This document shows, piece by piece, positions 11,387 through 45,324 of a stretch of DNA of 64,000 bases. Source of the stretch: Lachnospiraceae bacterium (GTDB taxonomy: Bacteria; Bacillota; Clostridia; Lachnospirales; Lachnospiraceae). Location: NCBI GenBank assembly GCA_017453065.1, contig JAFTKW010000013.1, positions 19,483 to 83,482 on the forward strand, read 5' to 3'. The notes under the pieces were generated by a model, which did no database searches, had not been told where the DNA came from, and worked only from the letters and a program-made list of their open reading frames with translations. Each line of letters begins with the position of its first letter. Position 1 is the first letter of the stretch. The position numbers and the translations under genes were made by a program.

Positions 11387-11418
11387 AAAAAGCCGTGGTT
11401 TAATAACCACGGCTTTTT
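11387..11418. terminator. Bidirectional terminator between buk and the AraC gene
   Basis: A 14-bp perfect inverted repeat (AAAAAGCCGTGGTT at 11387-11400 with 11405-11418) with a TAAT loop has A-tract and T-tract flanks. It can stop transcription from both convergent genes. The TAA stop of the AraC gene lies within the hairpin. Confidence 0.9.
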
Positions 11419-12239
11419 CTATATTCTCTAGGAGACATACCATATTCTTTTTTAAACAAATCTTTGAAATAGTTGCTGTCAGAAAAACCATATTCTAAAG
11501 CTATATCTGTGATAGTGCTATCGGTTGAATAAAGTGCTGTGGCAGCATTTTTCAGTCGAATGAAGTTTAGATACTCCTTGAAACCCATTCCCGTAACCTG
11601 TTTAAATTTCTTAGAAAAATACGTTGGACTCAAGGAGGAAACACTTGCCAGTTCTTCCAGCGTCAGAGGCTTTTTGTAATTTTGATATATGTACTTGGTT
11701 GCAAGAAGAATATCGGCCTCTTTGGCGGTGGAAATATCTAGTTCTTGGCAATCCAAGATACTATGGCGCATGAAAAAGAGTAATATTTCACTTAACTGTA
11801 GAGACATAAAGTGAGGAGACAATTCGTCAATGGAATTGCACTCTGTCTGCAGACGATTGAAAAGTCGGTTGAGTTCGTCTTGATAGATGTGTGGTACTGT
11901 TCCGACATAAGAAGTTACACCGTTAGGGCGAGCAGCTCTAAAAACAGAACGAATCTCTTGCTGCAAATGTTCAGGCTTGAAATAAATGAAGGTTAAATCG
12001 CAGTTGACATCTGCATAGTATTGGGAGTGGTGTAGCTCTCGAGGAGCAATCAGCAAAATATCTCCTTTGTCTAGGTTGTACAAAGTATCCTTGAGCAGAA
12101 AACGCAAGGATCCGGAATTGACGTGGATCAGTTCATAAAATGGATGATAATGATCTGGTTGCAACTTGGAATTGAATCCACGTTTTCCGCGGGTAAATAT
12201 GATAGTATCAATGTCTTTGTGTTTCATGTTGGATGTCAT
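11400..12239 (-). CDS. AraC family transcriptional regulator with cupin domain
   Basis: This 279-residue cytoplasmic regulator has an N-terminal cupin-like sugar-binding half (DHYHPFYELIHVNSGSLRF at about 29-47; GDILLIAPRELHH) and a C-terminal double helix-turn-helix from about 178 (LTLEELASVSSLSPTYFSKKF, then ITDIALEYGFSDSNYFKDLFKK). The start follows AGGGGAAA. It lies between buk and the pectin genes and reads away from the latter. A role in carbohydrate control is likely, but the target is not evident. Confidence 0.88.
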   Translation of the reverse strand: MTSNMKHKDIDTIIFTRGKRGFNSKLQPDHYHPFYELIHVNSGSLRFLLKDTLYNLDKGDILLIAPRELHHSQYYADVNCDLTFIYFKPEHLQQEIRSVFRAARPNGVTSYVGTVPHIYQDELNRLFNRLQTECNSIDELSPHFMSLQLSEILLFFMRHSILDCQELDISTAKEADILLATKYIYQNYKKPLTLEELASVSSLSPTYFSKKFKQVTGMGFKEYLNFIRLKNAATALYSTDSTITDIALEYGFSDSNYFKDLFKKEYGMSPREYRKSRGY

Positions 12240-12443
12240 AAGTTTTCCCCTTTACGAAATCGTTTTCGCTTATTTACTTAATTATAACCTAAAAATCATA
12301 AAAAAACAGTATTTTTTTGCCTTTTTCACAATAAATTGTGTTTATTTGGCAATTTTTATGCCGTATAATCTAATCAAGAAATGGGAAATCTGATTCCCCA
12401 AAATCTGGATACTCCTTTTTTCTTATAAAACTTCCTCAAAGTT
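12240..12443. other. AT-rich upstream region of the AraC gene
   Basis: No gene is seen. On the minus strand a TATAAT box (plus-strand ATTATA) lies about 40 bases before the AraC start. A short CGAAA/TTTCG inverted repeat (12255-12266) sits between it and the ribosome binding site. The rest is A/T runs. Confidence 0.4.
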
Positions 12444-12669
12444 GAAAACCCCTGCCAATTGGCAGGGGTTTTCGCATATGTATGCAGAAAATGATTTTTT
12501 CTGCATACATATGCGAAAGAGTGTTACACACTCGCGTGTAAGGAAAATGTTGCTTTGCAACCACGCTCGGCGCAACGAGTTTGCAAGCAAACTCGTATAT
12601 GCATATACGAAGTGATATACGTTTAGACGCACAAAGAGCCATATTGCTGAGAAGCAATATGGCTCTTTG
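12444..12669. repeat. Array of about seven hairpins (palindromic intergenic element)
   Basis: The following perfect inverted repeats lie end to end. 12444-12456 with 12461-12473: 13 bp, AATT loop, core CCCCTGCC. 12471-12491 with 12497-12517: 21 bp, 5-base loop. GAGTGT/ACACTC at 12519-12533. GTTGC/GCAAC at 12549-12561. ACGAGTTTGC/GCAAACTCGT at 12575-12596. The 16-base palindrome CGTATATGCATATACG at 12594-12609. 12632-12648 with 12653-12669: 17 bp, GAGA loop. No credible protein is encoded. The first and last stems could act as terminators for uxaC, but the density goes far beyond one terminator. It looks like a mobile palindromic repeat or a structured RNA. Confidence 0.8.
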
Positions 12670-12722
12670 CACATAATGAAAAAGGGGTCAAATAACACAA
12701 CAAGAAAAACAGTTACTAAAAT

Positions 12723-14129
12723 TTAAAGGGGAAATTTAAAGTAACGTTTCGCGTTGTTGTAGGAGATGTCTGTAACGATTTCGGACAGGATATCCATATC
12801 CGCTGGGAACTCACCGTTTTCAACCCAGTTACCAATCAGGTTACACATAATACGACGGAAATATTCGTGTCTTGTGTAAGAAAGGAAGCTACGGGAGTCA
12901 GTAAGCATTCCTACAAAACCAGAAAGATTGCCCAAGTTTGCAAGGGAAATCATCTGATCCTGCATACCTACTTTGTGGTCATTGAACCACCAAGCACTAC
13001 CCTGCTGAATCTTTGCAACTGCAGTGGAATCCTGGAAACAGCCAAGGATAGTTCCGATTGCCTGATTGTCATTTGGATTCAAGGAGTAGATTACAGTACG
13101 AGGAAGCTTGTCATCCTTAATCAAAGCGTTAAGGAAGTCAGCCATCTGGCTACTTGGTGCATAGTTGTTGATGCAGTCATAACCAGTGTCAGGGCCCAAT
13201 TTCTCGTACATCAATGTATTGTTGTCGCGTTTGCAACCATAGTGAAGCTGCATAGCCCAATCCAATTCATGGTACTGCTGTCCAACATAGAGCATGAAAG
13301 CAGTCTTAAACTTCAATTCCTCATCTTTAGTGATTTCCATGTGGTTCAATCTCTTGAGGAAGATTTCTTCGATTTCATCGTCTGTAGCAGGAACATACAT
13401 TACATATTCAAGTGCATGGTCAGATACGTTACAGCCCATAGATGCAAAGAAATCCATACGAATACGAAGGGCTTCTTTTAGCGCTGCAAAGGTGTTGATT
13501 TCTACACCAGAAACAGTAGCCAATTTATCCAAATAATCTAAGTAATCAGGTTTTTCGATGTTCATTGCTTTGTCAGGACGCCAAGCTGGAAGAACCTTTA
13601 CGTCGAAGCTTGTATCCTTGGCAATTTTGTCGTGCCATTCCAGAGAATCGATAGGATCGTCTGTGGTACAAATCAAAGTAACATTGGACTGCTTGATCAA
13701 ATTGCGAACGCTCATGGAAGGCTCAGCCAATTTTGCATTACAAAGGTTCCAAACTTCCTCAGCAGTATTTTTGTTGAGATATCCGTTGTAGCCAAAGTAA
13801 CGCTGCAATTCTAAGTGACTCCAATGGAAGAGAGGGTTGCCGATTGCCTTGCCAACACACTCAGCCCATTTGAAGAATTTTTCTTTGTCAGATGCATCAC
13901 CAGTGATGTATTTTTCTTCTACACCGCAGGAACGCATAAAACGCCATTTGTAGTGATCACCACCAAGCCAAACCTGAGTGATGTTGTCGAACTGACGGTC
14001 CTCAGCAATCTCCTTTGGGTTGATGTGGCAGTGGTAGTCCAGTACAGGAGTAACCTCTGCATAGTTGTGGAAAAGAGCTTTTGCGGTTTCGGTTTCCAAT
14101 AAGAAATCCTTGTCCATGAATTGTTTCAT
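12723..14129 (-). CDS. uxaC: Glucuronate/galacturonate isomerase
   Basis: This enzyme isomerises D-galacturonate to D-tagaturonate (and D-glucuronate to D-fructuronate), the first step of uronate catabolism. It has 468 residues, normal for UxaC. The start MKQFMDKDFLLETETAKALF follows AAGGAGGAA; the frame is open 36 bases upstream but without a ribosome binding site. The amidohydrolase-type metal motif DYHCHINP is near residues 31-38, and family landmarks such as WRPDKAMNIE and SLNPNDNQAIGT are present. It lies 13 bases after the LacI gene and is transcribed with it. Confidence 0.95.
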   Translation of the reverse strand: MKQFMDKDFLLETETAKALFHNYAEVTPVLDYHCHINPKEIAEDRQFDNITQVWLGGDHYKWRFMRSCGVEEKYITGDASDKEKFFKWAECVGKAIGNPLFHWSHLELQRYFGYNGYLNKNTAEEVWNLCNAKLAEPSMSVRNLIKQSNVTLICTTDDPIDSLEWHDKIAKDTSFDVKVLPAWRPDKAMNIEKPDYLDYLDKLATVSGVEINTFAALKEALRIRMDFFASMGCNVSDHALEYVMYVPATDDEIEEIFLKRLNHMEITKDEELKFKTAFMLYVGQQYHELDWAMQLHYGCKRDNNTLMYEKLGPDTGYDCINNYAPSSQMADFLNALIKDDKLPRTVIYSLNPNDNQAIGTILGCFQDSTAVAKIQQGSAWWFNDHKVGMQDQMISLANLGNLSGFVGMLTDSRSFLSYTRHEYFRRIMCNLIGNWVENGEFPADMDILSEIVTDISYNNAKRYFKFPL

Positions 14130-14142
14130 AGTGTTTTCCTCC

Positions 14143-15165
14143 TTATTTCTTTGGCGTTGTGCCACGAGTAATCAGTTCACCAGAAAAGATGGTCTTCTTT
14201 GGCATTTCGTTGCCGCCGAGAACACCCATCAATGTGACAATTAGGTGTTGGCACAAGGTCTCAAGTTTATTGTCAATAGAAGTCAACTCTGGATTGCTGC
14301 AAGTAGCCAGAAGAGAGTTGTTGTAGCCAATAACAGAGAAATCTTCTGGGATGCGTAGTCCAGCGAGCTGTGCGTATTTTAATGCGGCCATAGCCAAGTT
14401 GTCATCGGATGCGATAACAGCATTGAACTTCAAGCCTTTCTTTTGTGCCTTTAAAAGCTGATTAGCCATTGCATGAATGTCTTCATGAGAGCCGGTATAG
14501 AACTGAATCAAGTTTCCACTTTTCAGCAGATTGTTTTCTTCCATAGCAACGCGGTAACCGGCAAGTTTGCGTTTGCCACTGTAAGAAGTAGAGTTATAGA
14601 AGTACAAAATATCTTCTACTCCAGAGTGTATGAGCTGTAAGGTCGCTTCATACATGGAAGTAAAATCATCAGAAACAATGCTGTATACATTAGGGGCATC
14701 TAAAGCGGCATTTAACAGCATTACAGGAACCTGAGCTGCTGCATCAACTATGTATTGATTGTCCTCTTCTTTTTCATAGATGTAGTTGGAACCTATGCAG
14801 ATGACGCTGTCTACCTTTTTGGTGATAAGGAGGTTCATAGCTTTTTTCTTGGATTCCAATTCATAACCAGAGCAGCAGAGGATGCTGTCATATCCGTTTT
14901 GACGAAGTAATTGTTCAATATTGTAGATAGCCTTGGCCAAATATAGGTCAGAAGAATCTGCACATAGTAGGCCAATGGTGTTCATGGAGTTTAAGCCCAG
15001 ACCTCTTGCAAAAGCATTTGGTGTGTATTCATACTGGTGGATTACATCCAGAACTTTTTTCTTAGTTTTTTCGCTGACATTGCTACTGCCGTTGAGTACA
15101 CGGGAAACAGTGGCAATGGATACTCCCGCTTTTTCGGAAATATCGTAGATAGTCATGTTAGTCAT
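14143..15165 (-). CDS. LacI family transcriptional regulator of uronate genes
   Basis: This 340-residue repressor has an N-terminal helix-turn-helix (TIYDISEKAGVSIATVSRVL at 5-24, then the hinge-helix region) and a periplasmic-binding-like sensor domain. It is the first gene of the leftward lacI-uxaC unit and divergent from uxaBA. By position it probably represses both units and is relieved by a uronate catabolite, like ExuR/KdgR-type LacI members. TGTAAGCACTTACA at the uxaB promoter is its likely operator. The effector is not known from sequence. Confidence 0.88.
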   Translation of the reverse strand: MTNMTIYDISEKAGVSIATVSRVLNGSSNVSEKTKKKVLDVIHQYEYTPNAFARGLGLNSMNTIGLLCADSSDLYLAKAIYNIEQLLRQNGYDSILCCSGYELESKKKAMNLLITKKVDSVICIGSNYIYEKEEDNQYIVDAAAQVPVMLLNAALDAPNVYSIVSDDFTSMYEATLQLIHSGVEDILYFYNSTSYSGKRKLAGYRVAMEENNLLKSGNLIQFYTGSHEDIHAMANQLLKAQKKGLKFNAVIASDDNLAMAALKYAQLAGLRIPEDFSVIGYNNSLLATCSNPELTSIDNKLETLCQHLIVTLMGVLGGNEMPKKTIFSGELITRGTTPKK

Positions 15166-21683: not shown

Positions 21684-22448
21684 ATGGAACGCGCAAATTA
21701 TCATACACACACGCCAAGATGTATGCATGCAATTGGATCAGAGAGAGAATATGTAGAAAGTGCCATTCAGGCAGGAATCAAGATTCTTGGATTTTCAGAT
21801 CATAGTCCACAACCCTACACGGATGGCTTTGTATCAACTATCCGCATGACTATGGAGCAGACACCTGAATATATCGAAACTCTACTGCGACTTCGCGAGG
21901 AATATGCGGGAAAAATTGATATCAAGATTGGATTTGAAGCAGAATATATTCCGAATCTATTCGAACCATTGATGAAGGAATTGGAGAAATATCCGGTGGA
22001 TTATCTCATATTGGGACAGCATTTTGTTGGCGAAGAGACCCCTTCCAAATATTCAGGAAGAATACATGATGAACCAGAATGGTTAAAAGAGTATGTGGAT
22101 GTGGTGATTGAAGGACTTAAGACTGGCGCTTTTGCCTATTTGGCGCATCCAGATTTAATTCACTTTGGTGGGGATAAAGAGTATTATGCAGAGCAGATGA
22201 CTAGACTTTGTGAAGCTTGTAAGAAGTTAAACATTCCACTAGAAATCAATCGTTTGGGGCTTTGCGAGGGACGACATTATCCCACGGATTTATTCTGGCA
22301 GCAGGCTGCCAAGGTGGGCAATCATGTCATCATAGGCTACGATGCCCATCAACCACAGGTGCTTTCTGACGAAGCGGGCTACCAAGCTTGCAAGGATTAT
22401 GCGAAACGCTTCGGGATAGAAGTGGATGAGGGATACCGGATTTATTAA
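21684..22448 (+). CDS. PHP family phosphatase, histidinol-phosphatase-like
   Basis: This 254-residue protein has the PHP trinuclear metal site: HTHTPRCMHA at 7-16, FSDHSPQ near 38-44, GFEAEYIP, GQHF and AHPDLIHF. The closest well-known family is HisJ-type histidinol-phosphatase. No other histidine gene is present here. Placed at the end of the pectin locus, it may instead dephosphorylate a sugar phosphate; that is inference. Confidence 0.82.
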   Translation: MERANYHTHTPRCMHAIGSEREYVESAIQAGIKILGFSDHSPQPYTDGFVSTIRMTMEQTPEYIETLLRLREEYAGKIDIKIGFEAEYIPNLFEPLMKELEKYPVDYLILGQHFVGEETPSKYSGRIHDEPEWLKEYVDVVIEGLKTGAFAYLAHPDLIHFGGDKEYYAEQMTRLCEACKKLNIPLEINRLGLCEGRHYPTDLFWQQAAKVGNHVIIGYDAHQPQVLSDEAGYQACKDYAKRFGIEVDEGYRIY

Positions 22449-22451
22449 CGA

Positions 22452-22539
22452 GTAAATGTAAGAATAATTATCCATCGCAGACACGCTCTCGCTACGTTTT
22501 TCAAGAGTCTGCTCAAGATAATATTTCTTCCATTTACAC
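22452..22539. repeat. Palindromic element between convergent genes
   Basis: An imperfect inverted repeat of about 21 bases (left arm 22452-22472 starting GTAAATG, right arm 22517-22539 ending CATTTACAC) flanks an inner pair GCAGAC (22477-22482) / GTCTGC (22507-22512). The whole unit can fold into one 88-base cruciform or RNA hairpin. It fills the gap between the PHP gene and the pectinesterase and reaches the pectinesterase stop codon. It has the form of a small non-autonomous palindromic repeat. Confidence 0.6.
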
Positions 22540-23579
22540 TAAATACTCCAGTTATCCTTGCCGCTAAGTACAGCCTTACGGGTATATTTGGAGGCTTCTT
22601 CCTCAGTAAGCACATGAGAGAAGTCAGCGCGCTTAGTGGTGTCAGCGCCCTCACCTGTGCAGGCATATTCGCCGTAGTAGAAACTTTCGTGAGGTTTCTT
22701 CCAGTCCTGCCAGCCCAGTGGATGAATGTGCTTACCTATTTCACAGCGAAGGAACACGGTCTTGGCAAATTCACGCCATGGTCTTCCGAGATATACGGAA
22801 GCTTTGGGGCAGTCACTGATGAGTTTGCAGCTTTCAAATACATATCCAAAAGGTTCGCCTTCTGGCGTAGAGGCTGCAGTAATATATCCATATATCACTT
22901 CCTCATCTGGGCTTTCTGGTGGCTTGCGGTCACCAGGTTTTTGAGAGAAAATAGTGCAGTTTTCAAAATAACAGATGGCACTTCCAAAGATAAAATCTAC
23001 GTCCCCTCTTAGGAAGCAGTTTTTGTAATATTGTCTGCCCAGAATACGGGGTCTAAATTCACTAGGACCTGTAAAACCACCTGGTTTGGCAGCAGTAGGA
23101 GGTAGCGGTGCTGTGAAGAGCGTATCCTGACTGCCAAGGAAGATACAGTCCTCAAAAATGAGACGGTCTCCTTCCGCATACATAGCCAAAGCTTGTCCTA
23201 CGGTATGGCCGAAACCGGCATTGTTCTGGAAAGTAATATTGCGAGCGGTAAAGTCGTGGGTGTCGATGCGCACAGAAGCAGTACGGAAGGTGCCACGTTT
23301 ACTGCCATCTTCCATATCCTCATAGGCACCGAGATGGTAGGTCAAAATAGTATTTTCTGCTTTTTCGCCGATGAGTGTTACATGAGGACGATTGATGACT
23401 ACCTGCTCCTCGTAGATACCCGGAGCGATGTAGATATTCACAGGCTCTACATGGGAATCTTGAGCGGCGGGATAACTAGCTGGAGCAACTTCCTGCGCTG
23501 GTAGAGAATTAAGAGCCTGATTTAAACTGTCAAAATTAGGGTTTTCATGTGGATAGCCCACATAGAGATTGAAAGCCAT
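22539..23579 (-). CDS. Pectinesterase (carbohydrate esterase family 8)
   Basis: This enzyme removes methyl groups from galacturonate residues. It has 346 residues forming a right-handed beta-helix with CE8 motifs: GQALAMYAEGDR at 128-139, SQDTLFT at 150-156 (D152), GDVDFIFGSA at 192-201 (D195) and LGRPWRE at 264-270 (R266). These include the two catalytic Asp and the active-site Arg. It has no signal peptide, so it is predicted to be cytoplasmic, matching the intracellular GH28. It is read leftward, convergent with the rest of the pectin genes. Confidence 0.94.
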   Translation of the reverse strand: MAFNLYVGYPHENPNFDSLNQALNSLPAQEVAPASYPAAQDSHVEPVNIYIAPGIYEEQVVINRPHVTLIGEKAENTILTYHLGAYEDMEDGSKRGTFRTASVRIDTHDFTARNITFQNNAGFGHTVGQALAMYAEGDRLIFEDCIFLGSQDTLFTAPLPPTAAKPGGFTGPSEFRPRILGRQYYKNCFLRGDVDFIFGSAICYFENCTIFSQKPGDRKPPESPDEEVIYGYITAASTPEGEPFGYVFESCKLISDCPKASVYLGRPWREFAKTVFLRCEIGKHIHPLGWQDWKKPHESFYYGEYACTGEGADTTKRADFSHVLTEEEASKYTRKAVLSGKDNWSI

Positions 23580-45017: not shown

Positions 45018-45069
45018 GCTTCCTAGATGCGCTGTCCCATACAGCCATCTGCATAATCTAATAGGTGAG

Positions 45070-45263
45070 TTCTTCGGGGTTGGGTGAAAGCCAAAGGCTT
45101 AATTCCCTACTGGTGGTGATGCTGCTTGCAGACAAGTCCACGACCCGCCGAGCGAAAGGTGGATAGATTGCTAGGAAATACAAGATGCAGTCTAAAGTAT
45201 TGAGTTTGGTGGCTGAGTCGGTGCGAATCCGGGACCAACAGTATAGTCTGGATGAAAGAAGAA
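45070..45263 (+). ncRNA. FMN riboswitch (RFN element)
   Basis: The conserved landmarks are present in order: TTCTTCGGGG then GGGTGAAA at the 5' end, ACTGGTGGTGATGC, GAGCGAAAGG, TTTGGTGG, GTGCGAATCC, and AGTCTGGATGAAAGAAGAA closing the P1 helix (TTCTTC 45070-45075 with GAAGAA 45258-45263). It lies upstream of a RibU-type transporter, a standard RFN target. Several positions differ from consensus, notably in the central stems. Confidence 0.9.
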
Positions 45264-45324
45264 AGGTAATGACCAATAGATGGGCAGAGAGACATCTTTC
45301 TGCTTAGGCTTTACGTATGCATGT

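Follow-up and report, generated by a model that had tools for sequence, protein, structure and literature searches.

The known kinds of element nearest to the one described here are the MITEs and the REPINs, and group IIC introns, which insert behind intrinsic terminators, also bear on the comparison. REPINs form hairpins with compensatory changes, are dispersed extragenically and are proposed to be mobile, as set out in the accessible parts of PMC3116915. Small elements of the Correia/NEMIS, RUP and ERIC type, which are short, non-coding and dispersed, have been reviewed (PMC2229807). Repeated or palindromic structures have also been collected on a larger scale, both in the systematic list of stem-loop families in bacterial genomes by Cozzuto et al. 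(2008, PMC2267715) and in a human-microbiome study from 2021 (PMC8040213), which gave 250 palindromic candidate RNAs, 230 of them with predicted terminators; the accessible parts of these two sources do not name the element family reported here. Our search of the literature on palindromic or MITE elements of Lachnospiraceae and related genera found nothing relevant in the accessible texts, so an earlier unnamed listing is possible. Intergenic regions of Lachnospiraceae and related families hold a class of short folded element that is unnamed in the literature we found.

We analysed a stretch of 64,000 nucleotides from a Lachnospiraceae bacterium (GCA_017453065.1, contig JAFTKW010000013.1, positions 19,483 to 83,482), referred to here as the window. 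A dense hairpin cluster at 12444-12669 lies between a glucuronate isomerase gene (uxaC, 12723-14165; PF02614, 680 bits) and a gene for an AraC-family regulator (11400-12239; PF00165 and PF02311), both on the minus strand, and these Pfam assignments agree with the neighbours named in the original prediction. That prediction listed seven hairpins in the cluster, and all of them are present in the sequence. Five of the stem lengths (13, 6, 5, 10 and 17 bp) were as given, while the 21-bp stem is 22 bp long and the 16-base palindrome of 8 bp is an 18-nt palindrome of 9 bp. The region 12440-12675 had a minimum free energy of -118.9 kcal/mol on the plus strand and -117.3 kcal/mol on the minus strand, compared with means of -58.4 and -56.2 kcal/mol for dinucleotide shuffles (z = -13.4 and -14.6, respectively), and none of 200 shuffles was equally low on either strand. 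As for the absence of an encoded protein, the one frame that crosses the cluster, a 91-aa minus-strand ORF with a GTG start, came from a mechanical ORF call and has no support as a gene. When the whole window was scanned for inverted repeats (spacing up to 12, minimum 14 nt), seven pairs were listed, of which 12444-12473 was the sole one with 100% complementarity; the 22-bp and 17-bp hairpins were missing from this list and were shown by a local scan, and the 6-bp and 5-bp hairpins were read by eye. Elsewhere the window contains an FMN riboswitch (45066-45267, 79.6 bits).

With a probability of roughly 0.6, we regard 12470-12596 as an old, partly decayed non-autonomous mobile element of about 125-145 bp that was moved in trans, and the other hairpins as terminator-type structures. 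The cluster is a composite and not the single seven-hairpin element first proposed. At its uxaC end, the 17-bp hairpin at 12632-12669 (minus strand) occupies the uxaC terminator position; its T-run is weak (TTTGTG), and both hairpin and position are common to two relatives, G017 and G135, in which a similar hairpin, AAGAGCCATG..CATGGCTCTTTG, follows uxaC. This hairpin is most likely the uxaC terminator. At the other end, the perfect 30-nt palindrome at 12444-12473 (13 bp, AATT centre) carries an A-tract on one side and a T-tract on the other, adjoins the left hairpin of the element, and is most likely a second terminator-like palindrome, which by its letters would be terminator-like on both strands. 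The element between them has the complete layout of its family: a left hairpin (12470-12518, 22 bp, 5-nt loop) that stops 5 nt short of the core, a core of 52 nt on the plus strand (12524-12575), and a right hairpin (12575-12596, 10 bp, GAGTTTGC AA GCAAACTC, with AA as the loop). For neither side hairpin did any of 100 shuffles give one as long. The 6-bp hairpin GAGTGT/ACACTC (12519-12533) and the 5-bp hairpin GTTGC/GCAAC (12549-12561) also fall within the element, and an enclosing helix that had been absent from the original prediction, GCGTG (12534-12538) paired with CACGC (12562-12566), is part of the conserved core. The 18-nt palindrome (12593-12610, 9 bp) overlaps the end of the right hairpin and was not noticed in the other copies examined.

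Second copies of the element were recovered by covariance model, both in its own genome and in relatives, but not by blastn, which gave no full copy in the own genome or in 60 relatives. Three short partial matches were obtained in the 60 relatives, including one to the uxaC terminator of G017, and no match was found when the whole element, or two other copies, were compared with plasmids and phages. This failure of blastn to link the copies reflects stems that change while the fold stays. Local alignment of 12520-12640 with 2267 tiles gave a score of 49 for a locus on a Lachnospiraceae contig (L242, SVFD01000001) and 34 for the next other place, and the window and L242 have a common fold. A covariance model seeded from these two loci (R2) matched 7 places in the own genome, the window included, and 11 of 138 genomes of the same genus (E<=0.05). 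Its refinement from 27 copies, among them the window copy (R3), matched 11 own-genome places, 44 of the 138 same-genus genomes with up to 24 matches per genome (E<=0.05), and 23 of 295 genomes of the order (E<=0.001); both large model searches were run with stricter filters, at which weak matches are lost. Positions 12524-12575 scored 69.5 bits in R2 and 40.4 bits in R3, the window copy being part of both models. A sequence profile built without the window copy had one significant match in the 64 kb, at 12527-12574 (E 3.3e-7; next 0.36), although this profile is not fully independent because the R2 and R3 copies were found through their likeness to the window.

One further own-genome copy, between secY and adk (L145), was part of neither model and scored 37.2 bits (E 5e-8 in 1 kb and 1.4e-4 in its genome). 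Its membership rests on the covariance model, since local alignment gave it a score of 30, no better than several unrelated tiles. The pattern CTCGTTGCGCCGAGCG had 5 own-genome matches compared with 2 for a control (<=3 mismatches), so the secY-adk match to it is notable through its context alone. Matches to a 14-base pattern in 61 genomes were set aside, as all except two exact ones in the own genome looked coding or unrelated. Some copies may be counted twice: two own-genome copies (C14 and C44) have an identical core and identical hairpins and may be one duplicated locus, and L353 and L373 are the same place.

The conserved core is about 54 nt long and consists of P1 (TGCGC/GCGC), one extra base, P2 (9 bp), a 5' bulge, P3 (5 bp) and a small loop. 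The bulge is 10 nt in 74 of 78 copies; of the P3 loops in these 78, 51 have 3 nt and 26 have 4 nt. In the window copy, P1 (12524-12529/12570-12575) has two A.C mismatches, P2 is at 12534-12538/12562-12566, the 10-nt bulge is at 12539-12548, and P3 (12549-12553/12557-12561) closes a TTT loop. Because P1 is imperfect, and because RNAfold prefers a different fold for the plus-strand core of this copy, we take it to be decayed. Compensatory stem changes, which the original prediction had named as a point to look for, occur in both copy sets. We counted 107 double-change cells in the 27 copies compared with 39.4 after shuffling and at most 27 with the partner slid. A total of 310 such cells were counted in 78 distinct further rows, compared with 116.1 in shuffles and 50 in the best slid control, and 91.2% of the cells in these rows were paired; this alignment was fitted to the model and leans towards it, and one of its rows equals a row of the 27-copy set. 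Side hairpins were measured in nine copies (8 of the 11 own-genome matches and L242). The right hairpin was longer than in 100 shuffles in all nine, and the right hairpin of the window resembles those of several own-genome copies. The longest upstream stem beat 95 of 100 shuffles in six copies, in two of which it lies 40-48 nt before the core, and the left hairpin was not beyond chance in the other three. One idea is that in some own-genome copies the 3' arm of the left hairpin is perhaps an inverted copy of the landing site.

A conserved fold with two-sided covariation could also belong to a structured RNA, either a 5' leader or a small RNA present at many loci that acts in trans or, in cis, on the gene that follows. 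The next gene does run in the direction of the element in 75 of the 109 copies for which a gene was called on that side, and three copies lie behind T-box leaders, two of them by Rfam (L442, 113.5 bits; L338, 65.2 bits, below the gathering score) and one by eye (L352). If one RNA strand were under selection, G-U pairs should exceed A-C mismatches on that strand, and over all pairs there were indeed 94 G.T and 51 A.C cells. However, 61 of these G.T cells came from one pair and 23 of the A.C cells from another, and with pairs 1, 2 and 5 excluded the counts were 30 and 27. Nor did the plus strand have a folding-energy advantage in 29 copies, in which the energy of the core was lower on the plus strand in 8 and on the minus strand in 15, and that of the core with the right hairpin in 15 and 14, respectively. 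These pair and energy tests lean towards a constraint at the level of DNA and fall short of proof. The genes downstream look unrelated by eye in the few copies compared, the window copy is antisense to both of its neighbours, and no Rfam 15 family reached its gathering score over the core in the window and 12 scanned copies (E up to 0.01), the low-score matches to microRNAs and other families having been rejected as below their gathering scores. We therefore think a structured RNA unlikely. If instead the core is read as DNA, it would be a new substrate for a hairpin-acting transposase or recombinase that lands behind terminators, and would account for hairpin clusters of the kind that pipelines for RNA discovery may report as candidate RNAs.

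The element is associated with terminators. By a simple test, 64 of 110 copies have a terminator-like site in the 100 nt upstream, and 43 have one within 15 nt. The opposite side was positive in 9 of the 110, as were 26 of 524 random windows of 100 nt placed 250-1000 nt away at the same loci; many of these random windows will lie in genes. In genomes of the window's family, among them G316, G108, G128 and G134, the core often begins right behind a T-run. Both neighbouring genes ran in the direction of the element in 53 of 112 copies and both against it in 19; the neighbours diverged in 18 and converged in 12, and one side was unknown in 10. This context leans towards same-strand neighbours, but the copies behind the context and terminator counts are not independent because they are grouped in few genomes. 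Both neighbours of the window copy are on the minus strand, the reverse of the orientation that is commoner for the element. For 30 of the 112 cores there was an overlap with a called ORF of 110 aa or more, for which we suspect our crude ORF caller.

Evidence of movement comes from another family, f11, in which R3 matched six genomes. We collected 20 stretches from four of its genomes, of which 12 were measured (three genomes), two were cut by contig ends, and six were variant or unmeasured. The 12 measured copies are near-identical, 143-145 bp long, start with TATAGTAAACGACA and end with TGTCGTTTACTATA as inverted ends, and have flanks that are unrelated beyond an A/T-rich edge. A TA duplication is possible there and is inseparable from the element ends. 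From these sequences, the element appears mobile in f11 and looks as if it had moved recently; the precise ends were measured in f11 only, outside the window's genus, and no terminal inverted repeat was recognised in the window copy. In the own genome, the secY-adk copy is nested in an element of a second folded family (family A, below) that lost its 3' half, which speaks for insertion.

Hairpins beside terminators could alternatively be kept for the service they give, as terminators or 3'-end stabilisers of the REP/BIME type, and the T-runs that follow some right hairpins, together with the adjoining terminators, would suit such a role. We consider this role distinctly improbable, as a terminator-like site already precedes the element, termination needs no fixed bulge, and the f11 copies are near-identical with sharp ends.

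A mobile palindromic repeat was among the three options of the original prediction and is the best supported of them, with the restriction that only 12470-12596 matches the repeated element. For this mobile element, we infer mobilisation in trans, recognition at the DNA level, and arrival of the window copy by the same route. An enzyme encoded elsewhere would recognise the core in its folded state together with the hairpins at the ends, probably in DNA that is extruded or single-stranded, and would insert the element, in many cases immediately after the T-run of an intrinsic terminator. Landing behind a terminator would do little harm and would give the element its orientation relative to genes. 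More tentatively, and with a good deal of doubt, the element may be a terminator-seeking, geneless transposable unit whose identity is a fixed-geometry fold and not a sequence and whose putative enzyme reads a DNA hairpin; the host's terminator hairpin and T-run would be the landing site and, in some lineages, the left end, with family A as a sister system. No transposase with the f11 ends came out of a scan of viral contigs: one end had 29 exact matches there, and the other end, with up to 1 mismatch allowed, did not occur within 3 kb of any of them.

The mobile element resembles the Correia/NEMIS, RUP and ERIC elements in being short, non-coding and dispersed, and in the f11 copies with their precise inverted ends from TATAG and A/T-rich flanks. 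It differs from them by a folded core that is conserved separately and has a fixed geometry, and window-type copies have side hairpins and no recognised terminal inverted repeat. The f11 ends presumably resemble Correia ends, and we know of no parent insertion sequence for the element. Group IIC introns are similar in standing behind terminators, but the element is about 130 bp long, has no internal reverse transcriptase and gave no Rfam intron match in the window or at 12 loci. The conserved fixed-geometry core and the terminator association also set it apart from MITEs and REPINs.

Two further explanations are very improbable. Palindromes might have accumulated at this single intergenic site through chance or template switching, and the nearest uxaC relative that we found (G081, 92% identity at the protein level) does have quite different repeats behind its uxaC terminator, from which we take it that the spot 3' of uxaC varies between species; but a fold energy with z below -13 and R3 matches at 10 further places of the own genome and in 43 further genomes of the genus contradict a local accident. 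For 12470-12596, the R3 matches and the covariation refute it, while the palindrome at 12593-12610 may still be an accident. At the site that holds the element in the window, the G081 locus (L044) carries tandem repeats of the TTCGATGAATTTCTCGAG type and, after them, GGGCGTG..CACGCCC palindromes. A REPIN mobilised by a RAYT (Y1 transposase) would share the hairpins, the extragenic dispersal, the compensatory stem changes and the proposed mobility described in the accessible parts of PMC3116915, yet no inverted REP doublet was recognised, and Y1_Tnp (PF01797) was found in 1 of 14 element-bearing genomes, compared with 5 of 14 element-free ones, and was not found in the own genome, these assemblies being incomplete.

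Family A is a second dispersed folded element, represented by eight loci (L143, L144, L147, L107, L139, L148, L153 and L157) and by model R1; with R1 and R3, two such families can be searched for. Its core is CGTAGCGGTACATAAG-hairpin-CTAAGTACCGACG preceded by CGCTTTCGCT, and its outer closing stem differs among copies. R1 matched 30 of 61 genomes, 29 of them among the 37 of the same genus, and an exact 16-mer scan gave at least 118 stretches, with 77 of the 118 listed labelled Lachnospiraceae. Covariation in this family amounted to 238 double-change cells compared with 78.5 in shuffles, its terminal stem had 0 G.T and 3 A.C cells in 50 rows, and its core had no Rfam match at 16 loci. The hairpin cluster beside uxaC was rejected as a copy of this CGTAGCGGTACATAAG element, as R1 gave it only a generic hairpin of 14.8 bits that lacks the core motif. 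A probable collapsed copy of family A lies elsewhere in the window (22448-22540), between PHP-domain and pectinesterase genes; it is weak by score alone (15.4 bits, E 0.089 in the window) and keeps the outer stem and CAGACACGCTCTCGCTACG but has lost the inner hairpin.

Known RNA motifs were observed beside family A in one genome, G006, a cultured relative that also has one R3 match. TwoAYGGAY RNA (RF01731) follows shortly behind two family-A copies and Clostridiales-1 RNA (RF01699) lies beside a third (L107, L121 and L106), and TwoAYGGAY-like sequence follows most of 20 family-A copies examined in this genome. These two motifs may travel with a repeat. Other small palindromes were also seen at copies of the element of the hairpin cluster. 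In one f11 copy (L460), a different palindrome of 37 nt, TATAGTGAACGTC..GACGTTCACTATA, stands in place of the left end and is perhaps another small mobile palindrome. At L344 (about 1360-1470), GCGCGACGAAATAAGTCCGCAGGACTTATGAGTTGGCGCAG occurs twice in tandem upstream of the core copy, as a further hairpin repeat.
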